NCBI GenBank assembly: GCA_937884085.1
Contig: CAKZYD010000215.1
Location: forward strand, 1-32,713
Reading direction: 5' to 3'
Source: an uncultured Sphingomonadales bacterium
GTDB taxonomy: Bacteria > Pseudomonadota > Alphaproteobacteria > Sphingomonadales > CAKZYD01
Length of the DNA stretch: 32,713 nucleotides
Positions 16,586-25,773 of the stretch are shown piece by piece. The notes below the pieces were generated by a model. That model searched no databases. It was not told the origin of the DNA and saw nothing but the letters and a program-made list of their open reading frames with translations. A program made the position numbers and the translations under genes. Position 1 is the stretch's first letter; each line of letters opens with the position of its first letter.

Positions 16586-16671
16586 TGGTACGGATGGTGG
16601 GACTCGAACCCACAAGCTCAAAGAGCACCGGATTTTGAATCCGGCGTGTCTACCAATTCCACCACATCCGC
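16586..16671 (-). tRNA. tRNA-Leu (anticodon CAA), CCA encoded
   Basis: Minus strand GCGGATGTGGTGGAATTGGTAGACACGCCGGATTCAAAATCCGGTGCTCTTTGAGCTTGTGGGTTCGAGTCCCACCATCCGTACCA; cloverleaf with long variable arm, TTCAAAA anticodon loop, GGTTCGAGTCC T-arm. Confidence 0.95.
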
Positions 16672-16784: not shown

Positions 16785-18164
16785 TTAGCGAGACCCATAT
16801 GGCTTCAGATTGTACTTTCGCCGGTCGTTGTAGCGTCGCTGTTCAGCATCTACAAAGGCCAGCCAACCGTTGATCTGCTTTCGGTCTTTCTCTTTCTTGG
16901 CCAACTTGCGGGCAGCTGCGAAGGTTTTGCGCGCTGCGCTGAATTTGCTGGAATATGCCAGCGACATCCCTTCATAGACCTTAGCACGGTATGGATTGCT
17001 GAGGCCGCCAGCCCTTTGCGCTGCATTCAAGGCATCAGCCGCTTTGCTCCATTGTTCGCTAACAATATAGAGCTGCGCGACGCGCTCCCACAGCTTGCCG
17101 GCGTCCTTGCGCACTTTGCTGTCCTTGGAATCTGCCGCTTTCTTGGCTGCTTGTGCTAGCGGTCCCTTTGCATCATCAGATTCCCGTGCCAGCTGATAGC
17201 TGCTGCCCAGCAACTCCATGATCTCCTTATTTTCTTTCAAGACGCCGTCCTTCAAGCCCTTTTGAATAACGGCAACAGCTTGGATTGGGACACCATGGAA
17301 TTGATAAAGCTGCGCCATGCGCTTCACTTCAGATTCTGTATCGAGAAAGCCCTGCAGATAGGCGAGCTCAAACGAAGCAAGCTCGTCTTTGTCCAGACCC
17401 CGCTGTGAATACATGCCGGATAGCTGTTTCCAGTACTGCTCCTTCGGATGATTTACCAACAGCCATTTCAGAAGATCTGTTGCAGGCTCAAATTTATTAT
17501 TTTGTTGGTTGGCGACGACATTGGCGACGACCCAATTTTCGCGCCATTCCAAAGTTTCTGCGGTCGCTTTCTCTAATGTTGCGCTGCATGGCGTTAAAGC
17601 TTTCTGGAACTTCTCCGTTTGCAAATAGGCCTGGCAAAACAGAAACTCTTGGTTCGCACGCACAACTTCTGCCGTCTTGCGCCAATTCTCCAAGATACCC
17701 AGAGCGCGGTCATATTGACCTTCCACCATATAGACCTGCGCTAAGTTAAAGCGGACGGCGTCTGCATCTGATGGCGATACATCTGGCTCGCGGATCATCG
17801 CTTCCCAATCCTGGATTGCTTGGGGATAGCGGTCGAGTTGGGCGTGTAACTGACCGCGGAACTGGTAGAGTTTCGCGCGCTCATAGCTGGTGAGTTCAGC
17901 GCCCGCTGGTGCCCGCTGCAACTGCGCGAATGCACCCGGAATGTCGTCCTCATTCAACTTCTCAAGCGCGGCGTTCATCGCCTTGATGAGCTTGTCGTTG
18001 CGAATGATTTGTGAGCGCTTCTTTTTCTTTGCTTCCTGCTGCGCAAAGGCTTCGCTGACAAGCGATGTTCCAGGGACGTCCACAATGGCCGCGCCGAGGG
18101 TGAGCGCGCTGCCCAGCGCCATGGCGCTGATTGCGGTTTTCAGTTTCGAAACAGAGATTTTCAT
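16785..18164 (-). CDS. Tetratricopeptide-repeat periplasmic protein at the end of the Ton-type operon
   Basis: 459 aa, signal-like N-terminus, repeats such as RYPQAIQDWEAMIREPDVSPSDADAVRFNLAQVYMVEGQYDRALGILENW. Confidence 0.82.
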   Translation of the reverse strand: MKISVSKLKTAISAMALGSALTLGAAIVDVPGTSLVSEAFAQQEAKKKKRSQIIRNDKLIKAMNAALEKLNEDDIPGAFAQLQRAPAGAELTSYERAKLYQFRGQLHAQLDRYPQAIQDWEAMIREPDVSPSDADAVRFNLAQVYMVEGQYDRALGILENWRKTAEVVRANQEFLFCQAYLQTEKFQKALTPCSATLEKATAETLEWRENWVVANVVANQQNNKFEPATDLLKWLLVNHPKEQYWKQLSGMYSQRGLDKDELASFELAYLQGFLDTESEVKRMAQLYQFHGVPIQAVAVIQKGLKDGVLKENKEIMELLGSSYQLARESDDAKGPLAQAAKKAADSKDSKVRKDAGKLWERVAQLYIVSEQWSKAADALNAAQRAGGLSNPYRAKVYEGMSLAYSSKFSAARKTFAAARKLAKKEKDRKQINGWLAFVDAEQRRYNDRRKYNLKPYGSR

Positions 18165-18221: not shown

Positions 18222-18809
18222 TCACTCAGGGGCTGCAATTTTAAAGGCGACGCGAATGCCGCGCTGCCAAACAGCCTCTCCATTGACCAGCTTGCTGCGG
18301 TATTTCCATTTACGCACGGCTTGCGCAGCAGGTCGCTCCAGCTTTGAAGAGGTGGCTTGCAGGATTTCAATCGAATTGCGGTCAACAGACCCATCTGGGC
18401 GGACATCGAACTGCAGCGTGATGTATTCCGCCTGCGTGATATTCCTGAAATTTGGTTCTTGGCGGAAGATCGGCTGCGCGTCCCGATCCCGCTCCTTCCA
18501 GGCGGGGCGTCCGTCGTCGTCGCCTTTGGGCAGATCAATTGGTTTATCGATGGGTGGGCCTGGGCGATCAATCGTTGGGCCTGTAAAGTCAATGATTGGG
18601 GGCGGTACAGGCTTAGCTGGGCGAACTGGCGGGCGTTCGTGGATCGGTTTTTCTGGTTCTTTATACTCATGGATCGTTGGAATAATGCGCGGTGGGGCTT
18701 CGGTGAACACAGGTGTCCCGCCGGTGTCGATGAGAAGGTTCAAGCTGTAATATAAGATCGCTGTCAGCAGAGCTGCAACGGTTACACTTCCCGATAATCT
18801 CATCAGCAT
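18222..18809 (-). CDS. Energy transducer TonB-like protein (copy 2)
   Basis: N-terminal TM, proline-rich middle (YKEPEKPIHERPPVRPAKPVPPPI), TonB C-terminal pattern (ITLQFDVRPDGSVDRNSIEILQATSSKLERPAAQAVRKWKYR). Confidence 0.87.
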   Translation of the reverse strand: MLMRLSGSVTVAALLTAILYYSLNLLIDTGGTPVFTEAPPRIIPTIHEYKEPEKPIHERPPVRPAKPVPPPIIDFTGPTIDRPGPPIDKPIDLPKGDDDGRPAWKERDRDAQPIFRQEPNFRNITQAEYITLQFDVRPDGSVDRNSIEILQATSSKLERPAAQAVRKWKYRSKLVNGEAVWQRGIRVAFKIAAPE

Positions 18810-18891: not shown

Positions 18892-19488
18892 CTATTCAGG
18901 CGGTTGGATCGTGAATTGAACGCGTACGCCATATTGCCAGACATTCTCGCCGATGATCACTTTACCTTGATATTTCCACTTCTTCACCGCGCGGATAGCT
19001 GGCCGTTGAAGGCGTGTTGAGCTCGTTTGCAGCACTTGAATGGTGTCTTCGGCAACAGAGCCGTCTGGGCGCACATCAAACTCAAGCACGATAAATTCAG
19101 GCTTGCGGATGTTTTGGAATTCTGGCTCTTGGCGATAGATGGGCTGAGCATCGCGATCAACAGCGTTGAAATTGATGCCGCCGCCAACGTCCACGCCGCC
19201 GCTAAATTTAAAGTCCATATTCACGCCAGAGCCATTGGAAACGCTGGAGCGGGCGATATCGATCTTTGGTGGTTCGGGGGCTTCGATTTTCTCGGGGCGT
19301 TCGATTTGCTGCTCTTTGCGCTGCACTTCCGTTTCGCGTGGCGGGATCCGCGTATCAACGATCTTGAAGGAGAGATCTTCAGTCTGGGCGCTTTCGCCAG
19401 ACAGAATGAGGAGCTGCATGCCAAAATAAAGGCCAAAGGTCAGGAGGCCCGCGATAAATATAGAAATCGGAAGACGCACTAGCATCAA
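18892..19488 (-). CDS. Energy transducer TonB-like protein (copy 1)
   Basis: N-terminal TM, charged/proline linker, TonB C-terminus (IVLEFDVRPDGSVAEDTIQVLQTSSTRLQRPAIRAVKKWKYQGKV); clearly similar to the neighbouring 18222..18809 product. Confidence 0.88.
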   Translation of the reverse strand: MMLVRLPISIFIAGLLTFGLYFGMQLLILSGESAQTEDLSFKIVDTRIPPRETEVQRKEQQIERPEKIEAPEPPKIDIARSSVSNGSGVNMDFKFSGGVDVGGGINFNAVDRDAQPIYRQEPEFQNIRKPEFIVLEFDVRPDGSVAEDTIQVLQTSSTRLQRPAIRAVKKWKYQGKVIIGENVWQYGVRVQFTIQPPE

Positions 19489-19535: not shown

Positions 19536-19943
19536 CTATTTTTCGGTCGCCATGACCACACTGGCAACGCCCGCCTGCAGGGCTGCTTCATGGATCAAGG
19601 TATATGTCTCGATATTGGCACCCTCGGAGGAGGATACGACCACTGCCGCTTCCGGACGGTCTGCCAGCAATTGTTTCAAGCGTGGGAGTACCGATCCACG
19701 GTCGACCCGCAAGCGGTCAATAGAGATTGTTTGTGTCTGGTCAATGGTGACGAGAATATTCTTGTTCTCTTCGTCATCGTCCTCATTTTGATCGTTGTTT
19801 TGAGGCCGGATCACATCAAGACCGCTCTCTTTCACGAATGAGGCGGTAACGATGAAAAAGATGAGCATGATGAACACGACGTCCAACATGGGCGTCAGGT
19901 CGATGGCCGTTTCTTCTTCTTGGCTGCCGTATTTTCTACGCAT
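19536..19943 (-). CDS. exbD: ExbD/TolR-family biopolymer transport protein (copy 2)
   Basis: IDLTPMLDVVFIMLIFFIVTASFVKESGLDVIRP. Confidence 0.93.
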   Translation of the reverse strand: MRRKYGSQEEETAIDLTPMLDVVFIMLIFFIVTASFVKESGLDVIRPQNNDQNEDDDEENKNILVTIDQTQTISIDRLRVDRGSVLPRLKQLLADRPEAAVVVSSSEGANIETYTLIHEAALQAGVASVVMATEK

Positions 19944-20054: not shown

Positions 20055-20462
20055 TTAGCCCTTGTCCGTGGCCATCACCACGCGCTCAGCTCCGACGCGG
20101 GCAATGGCGTCCTGAACCTTGGCGTATACCGTTACATCCGACTCTTTATCCGGCTGGATGACGATCCAACCTTTTGGATTTTCAGCCAAAAGCCGCTCAA
20201 TCACCGGACCAACAGCATCCACATCATAGGCTTGCTGCTGAATATAGATCTCATTATCCGCGTTAATTGCGACAAGCACGCTGGCCTTATCGGCGAGCTG
20301 CAAAATCGTTTCATCCACCGCCGGCTTAAAGACATCGATGCCCGATTCTTTGACGAATGTGGCCGTCACGATGAAGAAGATCAGCATAATGAACACGACG
20401 TCTAGCATCGGCGTTAAGTCAATCGTGGCTTCTTCGGCTTGCTTTCTACTATGGGATCGCAT
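20055..20462 (-). CDS. exbD: ExbD/TolR-family biopolymer transport protein (copy 1)
   Basis: IDLTPMLDVVFIMLIFFIVTATFVKESGIDVFKP. Confidence 0.93.
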   Translation of the reverse strand: MRSHSRKQAEEATIDLTPMLDVVFIMLIFFIVTATFVKESGIDVFKPAVDETILQLADKASVLVAINADNEIYIQQQAYDVDAVGPVIERLLAENPKGWIVIQPDKESDVTVYAKVQDAIARVGAERVVMATDKG

Positions 20463-20476
20463 TGGCTCGTCTCCGC

Positions 20477-20998
20477 CTAGTGGTCCATGGTCAAGGAGTC
20501 TTCAAGCTCCTCAGCCCGTTTGTCAGCGGCCCCTTCCACATAGCTGGACGCAAAGACGCCAACGAGTGCGCCGACCATGCCAGCCATCGTGGGAATGGTT
20601 GCCTTCGAGACGCCAGACGCCATGGCCCGCGCATTGCCGTTACCAAGGGCTGCCATCACGTCAAACACCTCGATCATTCCCGTCACGGTGCCGAGCAGTC
20701 CGCAAAGCGGGCAGACGGCAACAAGTGTTTTGATGAGACCGACATTCGAGGAGAGGTCTAGCTTCACCTGACTGATCATAGCTGTCCGAATTTTGTGGGC
20801 GTACCAAGACTTGCGCTCCAGGCGTGCTTCCCAACGATCAATGACGTCCTGACGCTGCGTGCGGTAGGCGGTGTAGAAATACACCACCCGTTCCAGTACC
20901 AGTCCGATCATCAATGAAATCACAAGGAAGATCAGAACGAGGACGTCACCACCACGCTCTATGAAGGTGAAAACAGCGTATGAAACGCTATCAAACAC
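20477..20998 (-). CDS. exbB: MotA/TolQ/ExbB proton-channel family protein (short)
   Basis: FIERGGDVLVLIFLVISLMIGLVLERVVYF...LIKTLVAVCPLCGLLGTVTGMIEVFDVMAALGNGNARAMASGVSKATIPTMAGMVGALVGVFASSYVEG. Probable GTG start at 20998 (AAGGAGAACACGAGTG), overlapping the upstream stop; track start is 21028. Confidence 0.9.
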   Translation of the reverse strand: MFDSVSYAVFTFIERGGDVLVLIFLVISLMIGLVLERVVYFYTAYRTQRQDVIDRWEARLERKSWYAHKIRTAMISQVKLDLSSNVGLIKTLVAVCPLCGLLGTVTGMIEVFDVMAALGNGNARAMASGVSKATIPTMAGMVGALVGVFASSYVEGAADKRAEELEDSLTMDH

Positions 20999-22364
20999 TC
21001 GTGTTCTCCTTCTCAGCATGCACCGCAATAATGCCGGCAGCTTGCTCTTCCAAAATATGGATCAGAGATTTAGTCCGGCCAGCTAAGAAAGCGTGCAGCA
21101 GCACCGTCGGGATAGCAACCGTCAGACCAAGCACCGTGGTCACGAGAGCTTGAGAGATACCGCCGGCCATCACTTTCGGATCGCCCGTTCCAAACAAGGT
21201 GATCGCCTGGAAGGTGTTGATCATGCCGGTCACCGTTCCGAACAGACCGAGAAGAGGTGCAACGACGGAAACGATTTTGACAAAACCATTGCCGAACTCG
21301 AGTTTCGGAGTTTCTTTCAGGATGGCTTCATCCATTTTCAGCTCAAGCGTTTCCACATCCACAGTTTTATTGTCGTGGTAAGTCTGAAGCACCCGGCCAA
21401 GTGGGTTTCCACTACGTGGCTCTGTTGCCTTCATCTGTGCTTTCATCTTGCCGCCGACAATGACGAGATAGATCAGCTTGATAATGGTCACGATGATGGC
21501 AATCGCACCAAGGCTCAAAATGATGTAGCCAATGACACCGCCTTGACCGACACGCTCTTGAAGGTTTGGCGACTGACCAAGCAGCTTGAAGAGCTGGCCA
21601 CGAAGCGGATCAACGGCAAAGTCCACGTTGCCCGAGCCAGTTGCGAGGTTGTTGGCCGATGCTGCGATAGCTCCGTCAGGCTGCTGGGCAAAGGCGACAA
21701 GTTGGCCTTCATCAGCACCTGCGGGAAGGTTGTATTCCAAGAAATGTCCTTCGGAAACGGCGCCGAAGGTGCCAATCCGGATGACTTCCTGGTCGACTGT
21801 GTTTTCACCGTCAACAACGCTGGCTGTGTACCGGTCTGTATCACCCGACTCGATGGCCTGCTGCAGCATAGTTGACCACAAGAAGCGAATTTCTGAGATG
21901 TTTGGTAAGACAGAGCCTTCCGCGGTTTTCTCAATGAGCGTGTCAAGCTTTTCAGCCCGGCCTGGGAACTGAGATGAAATGAGGGACAGGCGCAATTGGT
22001 TGCGGAAGTCCCCCGCATATTGCTGTAAAACGCCAAAAAGCTCATTGAGGTTAGCGGCTTTTTCGCGCTGCTCGGCCCGCAATTCAGCAATTTTGCGTTC
22101 ATTGGCTTGGAAGGTTTCTTCCAGCTGTTCTGCTTTTCTCTCTTCCGCAGTCAGCGCGCCACGGGCGCGGCTGAGAAGCTGTGCTTGCTGGTTGCGCGCG
22201 GCTTGGAATTCGCGCTCACGCGCTTTGTTGGCTGCGCTGTCCGCCGAACGGCCTTTTTGAACGTCTTGAAGAAGCTGGTCCAAGCTTTTGGCGTCTTGCG
22301 CAATCGCAGGCGCGGAGAATGCCATCGTTGCGGCGGCAAGGGCCGATAGAATTATTTTTTTCAT
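20991..22364 (-). CDS. MotA/TolQ/ExbB family protein with N-terminal periplasmic coiled-coil extension (TtpC-like)
   Basis: Signal peptide plus coiled coil (AEERKAEQLEETFQANERKIAELRAEQREKAANLNELFGVLQQYAGDFRNQ) followed by ExbB core (KIVSVVAPLLGLFGTVTGMINTFQAITLFGTGDPKVMAGGISQALVTTVLGLTVAIPTVLLHAFL). Confidence 0.9.
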   Translation of the reverse strand: MKKIILSALAAATMAFSAPAIAQDAKSLDQLLQDVQKGRSADSAANKAREREFQAARNQQAQLLSRARGALTAEERKAEQLEETFQANERKIAELRAEQREKAANLNELFGVLQQYAGDFRNQLRLSLISSQFPGRAEKLDTLIEKTAEGSVLPNISEIRFLWSTMLQQAIESGDTDRYTASVVDGENTVDQEVIRIGTFGAVSEGHFLEYNLPAGADEGQLVAFAQQPDGAIAASANNLATGSGNVDFAVDPLRGQLFKLLGQSPNLQERVGQGGVIGYIILSLGAIAIIVTIIKLIYLVIVGGKMKAQMKATEPRSGNPLGRVLQTYHDNKTVDVETLELKMDEAILKETPKLEFGNGFVKIVSVVAPLLGLFGTVTGMINTFQAITLFGTGDPKVMAGGISQALVTTVLGLTVAIPTVLLHAFLAGRTKSLIHILEEQAAGIIAVHAEKENTSV

Positions 22365-22367
22365 GAT

Positions 22368-23159
22368 TTAGCGGCCCTCTGGAGCAGGAACTGGGAGCAT
22401 CAGCAGCTCAGCATTTGCCGTCTTGTTGGCGAATGCGATGCCGGCTGCGATGGTATTGACATAAGACTTGTCGAGCGTGGCAAAGCTATCAGTTGTTTTG
22501 TCGTAGAGGCCAACGACTGATGTATTGGTGCCGAGTGCCTTATAATATAGCCCAACGCGACCAAGCCTTAGGAATTGGACATTATCATACTGTTCGCCGT
22601 TGTGTGTCACTGGCCCGGAATAAGTCTCGACTGAACGACCGTATTCGACTTCCTGCGTAAAGGCATCGAGGATGAGGCGGAAACGCTCTGCTTCCGTAAT
22701 GCCGCCATCTTGTAGGTATTCACGCAAATCTGCGACGCGTTCCAGGCGCTCGGTGCGACGGAAGGGAATATCGCCTTGAACGAATTTCTCAAGGGCATCC
22801 ACCATGGCAACCATTTCAGGGGTGATCTGCCGCCGGATGGTGGCGATGTCGTCAATGGATTGCTCAAGCTGACCGATTGTCTTCACCTGTCCATCGATTT
22901 GCGCCTGCAATTGCGCATTAAAGATTCGTAAGTCGTCAATCGACTGAGACACCGTCTGGAAATCAGACAGCAGGTTTTGTGTCTCCTCATCAATGCGGTC
23001 AATGCGCGCTTGAGATTTGCGGCCCTGTTCGGCTGCCTGTTTTTCAACGCTTAACACACTGTCCACAGTCTGCTGCGCGCTTGCCGGGAGCGTAGCAAGC
23101 CCAAGGGCCGCCGCTGCGGCACTCAGAAGCACCGACTTTTGGAGTTTTCTGATTAGCAT
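22368..23159 (-). CDS. DUF3450-type periplasmic protein, first gene of the Ton-type operon
   Basis: Signal peptide (LLSAAAAALGLATLPASAQQ), coiled coil, GDIPFRRTERLERVADLREYLQDGGITEAERFRLILDAFTQEVEYGRSVETYSG, LRLGRVGLYYKALG. Confidence 0.85.
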   Translation of the reverse strand: MLIRKLQKSVLLSAAAAALGLATLPASAQQTVDSVLSVEKQAAEQGRKSQARIDRIDEETQNLLSDFQTVSQSIDDLRIFNAQLQAQIDGQVKTIGQLEQSIDDIATIRRQITPEMVAMVDALEKFVQGDIPFRRTERLERVADLREYLQDGGITEAERFRLILDAFTQEVEYGRSVETYSGPVTHNGEQYDNVQFLRLGRVGLYYKALGTNTSVVGLYDKTTDSFATLDKSYVNTIAAGIAFANKTANAELLMLPVPAPEGR

Positions 23160-23215
23160 TCGTCTTCCTAAAACGGTTCATGTTCAAAAGGGATGAGGTC
23201 GCATAACGCATTTAT

Positions 23216-23256
23216 GGACTGCGCTGGCAATTAAGGAGAATTGCACCAGCCAGTCC
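23216..23256 (-). promoter_or_regulatory. Leader hairpin upstream of the DUF3450/Ton operon
   Basis: GGACTG-cg-CTGG-CAATT-aaggag-AATTG-ca-CCAG-c-CAGTCC on + strand: 15 paired positions with small bulges; minus-strand loop is CTCCTT; about 57 nt upstream of the DUF3450 ATG. Confidence 0.5.
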
Positions 23257-23598
23257 GTACTGCGAAATGACAGAAGAGTTCACCGCTAGATGGTGCTTTT
23301 GGCAGAATTGATCCCGCCACACCGTCGTCAAATTGCGATGTCCGCTCCCAACATCCCCTCGCCTCAAAACGTGTTTATCTTTCTTTCACGCTCAGACAGC
23401 GCGCATCTTCCAAGAAATCGTCTGTAATGAAAGGAAAAATTTTAGATGGCTGGAGAAAATATGAGAGGAGCGGAACGAACGCGGACAAATCAGGCCTATG
23501 TCAGCCATATTGGACGGCTGTCAGCGTACGCTTTCCAGCGCGTGTCTAATTTTACAGCAACGATGAGTGTTTGCTGCGAATCTTTTCTGTGGAAAAGA

Positions 23599-23796
23599 CT
23601 AATTCAATCGGTCGATGGCGGAGAGGACGCCGCTCCAATGATTATCCAGGCATGTGCGACGTGCGCCTGATTCGCCCAAGTGGCGAACGAGTTGGCGGGC
23701 AAGCGCTTGGATGTGATCCAGCTGCTCATCGGGCTTGATCCAGCTGCTTGTATCATCGACCGACGTGCTGTTGGTTGGGGCGTATGATTGGGCCAT
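23599..23796 (-). CDS. Small 65-aa protein of unknown function, immediately downstream of the riboswitch-like RNA
   Basis: MAQSYAPTNSTSVDDTSSWIKPDEQLDHIQALARQLVRHLGESGARRTCLDNHWSGVLSAIDRLN; ATG 15 nt beyond the RNA 3' edge with an AGGATC-like SD. Position relative to the RNA is the main support. Confidence 0.6.
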   Translation of the reverse strand: MAQSYAPTNSTSVDDTSSWIKPDEQLDHIQALARQLVRHLGESGARRTCLDNHWSGVLSAIDRLN

Positions 23797-23810
23797 AATA
23801 TTTGATCCTG

Positions 23811-23898
23811 TTCGGCAGCCCCGCTATCCGTGCACGCAAATGCTGCGTTTGGGACCGGAAGCTTTGCGTCCCGTCGTTTCCAACGGTTTGCCTCTATC
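23811..23898 (-). ncRNA. Cyclic di-GMP-I (GEMM-I) riboswitch-like RNA
   Basis: Minus strand GATAGAGGCAAACCGTTGGAAACGACGGGACGCAAAGCTTCCGGTCCCAAACGCAGCATTTGCGTGCACGGATAGCGGGGCTGCCGAA. Contains GEMM-I landmarks GGCAAACC, hairpin CCGTTG-GAAA-CGACGG (GNRA tetraloop), GGGACGCAAAGC, second arm GCT/AGC + TCCG/CGGA + ACGCA/TGCGT, then ATAGCGGGGCTGCCG; closely parallels Vibrio Vc2 as recalled. Confidence 0.92.
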
Positions 23899-23973
23899 GT
23901 AGGACCGCAAAACTGACTGCGGCCTTAACAGTGCACTCTATCTGGATAATCTGAAGAAAGCGTTGCCAAGCGG

Positions 23974-25773
23974 TCACAATAGCTGGACTGGGACCAGCCC
24001 GCGCAAAGCATTCCCAGCGAAAACGCGCTTGGCATTGTAAAGGTCATTTTGCGTCAAATGCGCTTCCTTTGCGTCGCCGCTGCGCAGCAGGTGCTCTCTT
24101 AAGATACCGGGTAAGAATTTATTGTTCGCTTTCGGCGTCAGAAGCTCCGCGCCTGACTCTAAGAAGATATTGGTAAAACTGCCTTCCGTCAGCAGGCCAT
24201 CTTCATCGACAAGGAAAACCTCATCGCAAGGTCCTTGCCTCTTGGCGTGCGTTAGGGCCTGCGCGTAAAACCAACGCATGCTTGTTTTGTGCCTTAGGAA
24301 GCGATCGGGAATCGTTTCTTGTGTCAATTCACCTAAGCGCACGCGCAGGGGCTTGGCAGCGTCGGCTGGCCGCGTCGAGAGGCTCACAGATCCATTGCGG
24401 CCATAGACGAGCCTAAGCCTGTGTAGCTTTTGCGGTAAATGGTCCGCAAAATCTCGTACCTGCTGCGTTAGGGCCTGGCGCGACGGTGCGGTAAACCCAA
24501 GTGCGGCTGAGCTCCTCTCAAGCCTATCCAGATGAAGCTCCCAAAGTTTTGGGAGCGGGGCTTCCCCTGGATTGACCGCCGCCGTTTCTATAAGCGCAAA
24601 GTCTTCAAATGAATCCGTGAGAAAATCCGCTTTAGCAAGGCATTCCGCATATTCATCAGCTGCATTGCTATCGGCGACGATACCGCTTCCGACGTTGAGA
24701 ACAGTCTTATCTCCTTCCGAGATCAGCGTGCGTATTGGCACTGAGAAGCTGGCGTCTCCGCTAGGCAACACGATGCCTATAGCGCCGCAATAGAGACCCC
24801 TTGGCGCTGCTTCCTGCGCAGCGATGATATCCATGGCGCGTATTTTTGGGGCTCCCGTGATTGAGCCGCAGGGGAATAGCGCGGTAAAGATATCGCTGAG
24901 GCTTGTGCCATCTTGCAATTCAGCTTCAATCCGCGATGTCATTTGAAACACGCTTGGCAAGGACTGCACGTCAAACAAGGCGGGAACTTCGACGCTGCCA
25001 GTCTTGGCCACGCGGCTCATATCATTTCGTAGTAGGTCCACGATCATGAGATTCTCTGCTCGATTCTTCGGGTCGGTCCTCAGGTCGTCTTGTGTGTGGC
25101 CTTCCGCGTTTCGAAGTGTCCCTTTCATCGGTTCAGCATAGAGGCGCTTTCCTTTGCGGCTAAAAAACCGTTCTGGAGAGAGGCTTAGGACAGTGCCATT
25201 CTCGGTGGATAGAAAAGCACTGAACATGGAGGGCTGTTGGCGGCGAAGACGCGCATAGAGCGTAGCGGCATGCCTACTTGCGTTAACAGAGAGCGGAAAT
25301 GTGAAATTGGCTTGATAAATGTCCCCTTTTTCCAAATGGGTTTTTATCTGAGCCACGCGCGCTTCATAGACGTCTGCAGAAATATCTGCCTCTAGTATGG
25401 ACGTGGACGCGTTTGGGTACGTCAATGCATATTGGCGCCAAAAGTCGTTCAACTCGCTGGCACTCAGTGTCTGCGCATCCTTGAACAACTGAAATTTAAG
25501 AAGGGGCCCGGCGCTCGGGGCGACTTGAACCGCCATTTTGGCATCGAAAGCGGGCGCTCCCTCATAGCTGATGCAACCGGCAACATAATAGCCGTCAGCG
25601 GCTGCGGTCTCTACAGCGGTCAAAGATGGGATAACGTCGGCGAGATCTTTGGCTATGATTGAGCGAATTGGATTTTGTAACAAGAGGCCCGCTGAGCCAA
25701 AGACGTTTTGTTTTGGGCCAGCCCGGCTGTCTTCAAAAAGGCAGAACGGACTGGCCGGCGCAATCAGCGTCAC
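23974..25773 (-). CDS. pabB: Aminodeoxychorismate synthase component I fused to class-IV aminotransferase (PabB-PabC)
   Basis: Chorismate-binding core (KGDIYQANFTFPLSVNA, SPERFFSRKGKRLYAEPMKGT, LFPCGSITGAPKIRAMDII) followed by PabC-like domain (TSMRWFYAQALTHAKRQGPCDEVFLVDEDGLLTEGSFTNIFLE). Confidence 0.92.
   Translation of the reverse strand: MTLIAPASPFCLFEDSRAGPKQNVFGSAGLLLQNPIRSIIAKDLADVIPSLTAVETAAADGYYVAGCISYEGAPAFDAKMAVQVAPSAGPLLKFQLFKDAQTLSASELNDFWRQYALTYPNASTSILEADISADVYEARVAQIKTHLEKGDIYQANFTFPLSVNASRHAATLYARLRRQQPSMFSAFLSTENGTVLSLSPERFFSRKGKRLYAEPMKGTLRNAEGHTQDDLRTDPKNRAENLMIVDLLRNDMSRVAKTGSVEVPALFDVQSLPSVFQMTSRIEAELQDGTSLSDIFTALFPCGSITGAPKIRAMDIIAAQEAAPRGLYCGAIGIVLPSGDASFSVPIRTLISEGDKTVLNVGSGIVADSNAADEYAECLAKADFLTDSFEDFALIETAAVNPGEAPLPKLWELHLDRLERSSAALGFTAPSRQALTQQVRDFADHLPQKLHRLRLVYGRNGSVSLSTRPADAAKPLRVRLGELTQETIPDRFLRHKTSMRWFYAQALTHAKRQGPCDEVFLVDEDGLLTEGSFTNIFLESGAELLTPKANNKFLPGILREHLLRSGDAKEAHLTQNDLYNAKRVFAGNALRGLVPVQLL

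Follow-up and report, generated by a model that had tools for sequence, protein, structure and literature searches.

Analysis of the window, the whole 32,713-nucleotide stretch of DNA presented here, showed a pabB-pabC fusion gene, a c-di-GMP-I class aptamer, a mini-gene of 65 codons and a TonB2-type operon, all on the minus strand. The coordinates of these features are given in Table 1. A tRNA gene (16589-16671, minus strand) was located just downstream of the TonB2-type operon.

Table 1. Features of the aptamer, the mini-gene and the neighbouring genes in the window
Feature	Position	Strand	Basis
pabB-pabC fusion, conserved upstream neighbour	23974..25773	-	PF00425, PF01063; synteny
Putative anti-SD strand GGUCCU, 5' strand of extended P1	23901..23906	-	Inferred from complementarity to AGGAUC
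c-di-GMP-I class aptamer	23810..23901 (RF01051 span 23811-23902)	-	RF03167 67.3 bits, RF01051 69.5 bits
Pocket base equivalent to Vc2 G20, here G	23892	-	Rfam model alignment; numbering PMC4744006
P2 hairpin CCGTTG-GAAA-CGACGG, GNRA tetraloop	23871..23886	-	Pairs kept via two-sided changes in relatives
Pocket base equivalent to Vc2 A47, here A	23865	-	Rfam model alignment; RF03167 model has conserved G
Pocket base equivalent to Vc2 C92, here C	23815	-	Rfam alignment
AGGAUC with Shine-Dalgarno (SD) AGGA, 9 nt before ATG	23804..23809	-	Sequence
65-aa mini-protein gene, predicted three-helix C-terminal domain	23599..23796	-	ORF, homologues, AlphaFold2, dN/dS
ttpB-like (DUF3450), first gene of operon, 440 nt downstream of mini-gene	22368..23159	-	PF11932 6.1e-67; operon type PMC6957404
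ttpC-like MotA/TolQ/ExbB protein, long N-terminus	20991..22364	-	PF01618 2.3e-30
exbB	20477..21028	-	PF01618
exbD, first copy	20055..20462	-	PF02472
exbD, second copy	19536..19943	-	PF02472
tonB-like, first copy	18892..19488	-	PF03544
tonB-like, second copy	18222..18809	-	PF03544
TPR protein, ttpD-like, operon end	16785..18164	-	TPR matches; position as in PMC6957404

The aptamer exceeded the gathering scores of two Rfam models: that of RF01051 (c-di-GMP-I, or GEMM-I; 35 bits), with 69.5 bits and an E-value of 2.1e-13 in a whole-genome search, and that of RF03167 (c-di-GMP-I-GGC; 59 bits), with 67.3 bits and an E-value of 4.9e-14 on Rfam cmscan. Its score was among the best in the order (401 genomes), and no second copy was found in its own genome (3.8-Mb assembly). 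The initial annotation had proposed a c-di-GMP-I riboswitch RNA, and this was confirmed by the significant RF01051 match and the presence of all three contact bases. The elements it had named were all found, namely GGCAAACC, the 6-bp stem of P2 with its GAAA cap, GGGACGCAAAGC, the second arm and ATAGCGGGGCTGCCG, while the upstream boundary, placed at 23898, was corrected to 23901/23902, or to 23906 with the putative anti-SD strand included. The RNA stood directly before the 65-codon ORF, as had been described, with a gap of 13 nt from the aptamer end to the ATG and AGGATC lying in it. Given the E-values, and given that relatives have kept the RNA as well as the ORF, a chance match is excluded.

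Examples of c-di-GMP-I riboswitches are Vc1 and Vc2 of Vibrio cholerae and Cd1 of Clostridioides difficile. In Vc2, c-di-GMP is contacted by G20, A47 and C92, and the window shares with this class the fold, the GNRA tetraloop, the three contact bases and the position in a 5' leader (PMC4744006). It differs from the class in that it precedes, and putatively controls, the gene of an uncharacterised mini-protein, and in that the SD abuts the 3' strand of the aptamer, P1 amounting to merely two to three pairs in Rfam. At position 47 the consensus is a conserved G in RF03167 and a conserved A in RF01051, and the window has A. Since it passes the RF03167 cut-off yet does not carry the characteristic G47, the aptamer is, as judged from its pocket bases (G20/A47/C92), an ordinary c-di-GMP-I; the GGC-variant label, which is the top label in Rfam, was rejected. 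Of the 13 GGDEF domains in the genome itself, several have an intact motif, from which c-di-GMP synthesis is predicted.

Aptamers were detected in 32-33 of the 401 genomes of the order, and 34 aptamer places were examined with their flanks. The mini-gene was the first gene downstream at 22 of the 34, the window included (families f1, f3, f7 and f8, the last being Emcibacteraceae and relatives according to named contigs), with an SD (GGAG/AGGA) directly after the aptamer. Conservation of the ORF downstream of the RNA was thus found in relatives, the pair occurring in 22 genomes from at least four families. The linked homologues measured 52-72 aa as read. At one locus (L106, genome G115), the ATG frame of the mini-gene was broken after a few codons and the conserved frame restarted at a GTG, which was taken as the start. 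The remaining 12 aptamers preceded, by eye, large adhesin- or autotransporter-like, secreted peptidase-like, flagellar-rod-like or unassigned ORFs; the majority belonged to the adhesin, autotransporter and flagellar types, which are the usual outputs of c-di-GMP. Genome G054 carried a second aptamer (L098, G054:C4:27173-27252) directly before a FlgC-like flagellar rod gene (by eye), and a weaker aptamer (L123, G007:C1:437622-437695; 40.3 bits with RF03167, 46.2 bits with RF01051) preceded an unrelated 65-aa ORF (MVDIAGISNSAAQQQ...).

Aptamer presence was patchy among relatives, and many genomes had the mini-gene but no riboswitch. A mini-protein tree labelled by riboswitch presence showed six changes; the tree was unresolved and compatible with one origin. 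The RNA-gene pair places a known riboswitch class before a conserved mini-protein family so far without a name, and no reports of a riboswitch/mini-protein association were found in a literature search of partial coverage.

The mini-gene-linked aptamers showed a GNRA tetraloop in 22 of 22 cases, two-sided changes at P2 pairs 2, 3 and 4 and at the P2 closing pair, and A at position 47 throughout. Base 20 was G in 12 of them, A in 8 (L109, L110, L111, L114, L116, L118, L119 and L120) and C in 2 (L117 and L121), with pairing and GNRA loops kept in the A20 and C20 copies. All 12 aptamers before other genes had G at this base when read by eye, and the comparison of linked with other aptamers gave a Fisher p of 0.006, which is only indicative because the sequences are related. 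Genomes G009 (A20) and G016 (G20) hold near-identical sister loci that yet differ at this base, from which base 20 must have changed on at least two occasions.

Mutation of G20 in Vc2 carries an affinity cost of about 30,000-fold (PMC4744006), and A20 confers cGAMP selectivity in Geobacter (PMC6456294). The Geobacter GEMM-Ib 3',3'-cGAMP riboswitches have the same scaffold as the window aptamer, and their A20 recurs in the eight relatives; unlike them, the window has G20, and cGAMP sensing by its aptamer was rejected on this base. From 58 GGDEF matches, degenerate ones included, 38 domains were read in the window genome and in relatives with G20, A20 or C20. Those read in the window genome carried the canonical Asp, and none of the 38 had a Hypr-type Ser, which leaves cGAMP sensing unsupported in the A20 and C20 relatives as well.

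The description of the ORF as an orphan in the initial annotation did not hold, given homologues in 71 of the 401 genomes of the order; a class-wide sample of 290 genomes, the window's own not counted, had more distant homologues in 13. That the 65-aa product has no known domain was upheld, with no significant match in Pfam, NCBIfam or PHROG and no match among PDB sequences and PDB folds. A contig search with the window protein alone gave no match, and a search with the f8 sequence alignment gave 26 named contigs. From these homologues, the protein is assigned to an alphaproteobacterial mini-protein family so far without a name. The invariant residues in 21 sequences were L32, A33, G41, A45, C49, W54 and L58, and AlphaFold2 predicted a disordered N-terminus followed by helices at 22-40, 42-52 and 55-64, with high confidence over the last 35 residues. 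Within genus g23, the C-terminal domain had a median dN of 0.021 and a median dS of 1.46, with 9, 3 and 40 variable sites at the first, second and third codon positions. The dN/dS values and the codon-position pattern indicate that the mini-gene is real and constrained, and its product is under strong purifying selection by this measure. At five loci (L233, L235, L236, L240 and L245), a paralogue without an aptamer had an L-serine dehydratase gene on one side and an Lrp/AsnC regulator on the other. Emcibacter-type mini-genes also occurred on contigs labelled Desulfobulbaceae and Crocinitomix (L175 and L177), which are probably mis-binned MAG contigs.

Downstream of the window mini-gene, ttpB(DUF3450)-ttpC-exbB-exbD-tonB-TPR were found in this order. 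The Vibrio TonB2 operon consists of the same types of gene, arranged likewise (ttpB2-ttpC2-exbB2-exbD2-tonB2-ttpD2; PMC6957404), and the window differs from it by two copies of exbD, two copies of tonB and the extra mini-gene upstream. Of 31 informative primary loci, the window included, 29 had the mini-gene some 0.4-0.9 kb before ttpB. This order was kept also where no riboswitch was present (f2, f6 and part of f7 and f8; aptamer absence checked in named contigs too), and the arrangement pabB - mini-gene - ttpB - ttpC was found in four f4 genomes as well. The two exceptions were G009 and G016, in which the riboswitch and mini-gene are away from ttpB and MotA/ExbB-type and TonB-like genes lie about 3-4 kb off. 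The gap of 440-920 nt between mini-gene and ttpB held no evident conserved gene (window 23160-23598; L094, L103, L115 and others). G054 has a strong terminator behind the mini-gene, so the mini-gene is probably a transcription unit of its own. With this gap and the terminator in one relative, the functional link between mini-protein and TonB operon is drawn from synteny.

The element before the mini-gene is probably a class I c-di-GMP riboswitch acting on the translation of this conserved protein, which is about 60 aa long. That c-di-GMP regulates at the level of translation is the best reading and a natural one, since the SD lies immediately next to the aptamer and a search of the minus strand at the window aptamer gave no terminator-like site. 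Binding of c-di-GMP would close P1. As GGUCCU on the 5' side of the aptamer and AGGAUC on its 3' side are complementary, a longer, ligand-stabilised P1 in which these two strands pair could mask the SD, and high c-di-GMP would then switch the mini-protein OFF. A pyrimidine-rich strand complementary to the SD was found before the aptamer in several lineages, although the combined p of about 0.02 over seven lineages is weak. In ensemble folding with a 10-nt leader and the bound-fold constraint, the window SD paired mainly with positions -2 to 1, and with a 25-nt leader the P1 extension competed with an upstream hairpin. SD accessibility showed no consistent difference in sign between the free and bound modelled folds, and MFE folding of the whole leader gave an uninformative z of -1.1. 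The OFF direction is given a slightly better than even chance, the ON direction is a serious but clearly less probable possibility, and what is left falls to other modes.

For translational ON, the SD would, in the ligand-free RNA, pair with GGUCC, the 5' strand of P3; the strand with which GGUCC normally pairs, GGAUA, is similar to the SD, and c-di-GMP would fold P3 and free the SD. Class I riboswitches of both ON and OFF type are known (PMC9262584). In three f8 members (L109, L110 and L111), aptamer positions 48-52 were the pairing partner of the SD in the free ensemble, and SD accessibility rose by more than 0.1 once the bound constraint was applied; among 21 sites modelled with a 25-nt leader, 6 shifted toward ON and none in the opposite direction. 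In the window, however, the free ensemble did not use the pairing of SD and P3, and with a 10-nt leader the bound fold hid the SD more.

Control of the entire TonB2-type operon by transcriptional read-through, with the mini-gene merely as first cistron, would fit the shared strand and the conserved order of mini-gene and ttpB. It is nevertheless improbable, because 440-920 nt without a conserved gene separate the two, a strong terminator stands behind the mini-gene in G054, the minus strand at the window aptamer has no terminator-like site, many loci of the same order are without an aptamer, and in G009 and G016 the riboswitch and mini-gene are distant from ttpB. That the aptamer is a decaying relic and has little regulatory effect left is more improbable still; its patchy presence and the drift at base 20, seen in 10 of the 22 linked aptamers, would agree with this, but the aptamer of the window has all its pocket bases and one of the order's best scores, and even the copies with a drifted base 20 retain P2 pairing and GNRA loops. 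Least probable of all is a c-di-GMP-I-GGC variant with a different, as yet unnamed ligand; the first rank by E-value that RF03167 takes over RF01051 in the Rfam clan competition speaks for it, and against it stand the higher bit score of RF01051 (69.5 vs 67.3) and the A that replaces the model's conserved G47 in the window and in all 22 linked aptamers.

Under translational control by c-di-GMP, the mini-protein may be a small accessory or regulator of the adjacent TonB-energised uptake system, a weaker suggestion that comes from synteny, and some lineages would couple envelope energisation to the motile/sessile switch. A further proposal, which we regard as rather unlikely, is that the mini-protein is a dedicated c-di-GMP output tuning a TonB-type uptake machine, with the orthologous riboswitches retuned in affinity or ligand by repeated change of base 20 from G to A or C before one and the same gene. 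A narrow full-text search found no papers on a link between c-di-GMP and TonB energisation.

For the uncharacterised family, c-di-GMP is now a concrete putative input and TonB2-type energisation a concrete neighbourhood, which together make the role of the mini-protein directly testable. The G20, A20 and C20 aptamers before one gene provide a natural series for studying the evolution of riboswitch specificity. If the link of the mini-protein to the TonB system is true, the signal for motile or sessile life would be coupled to the energy supply for outer-membrane uptake.
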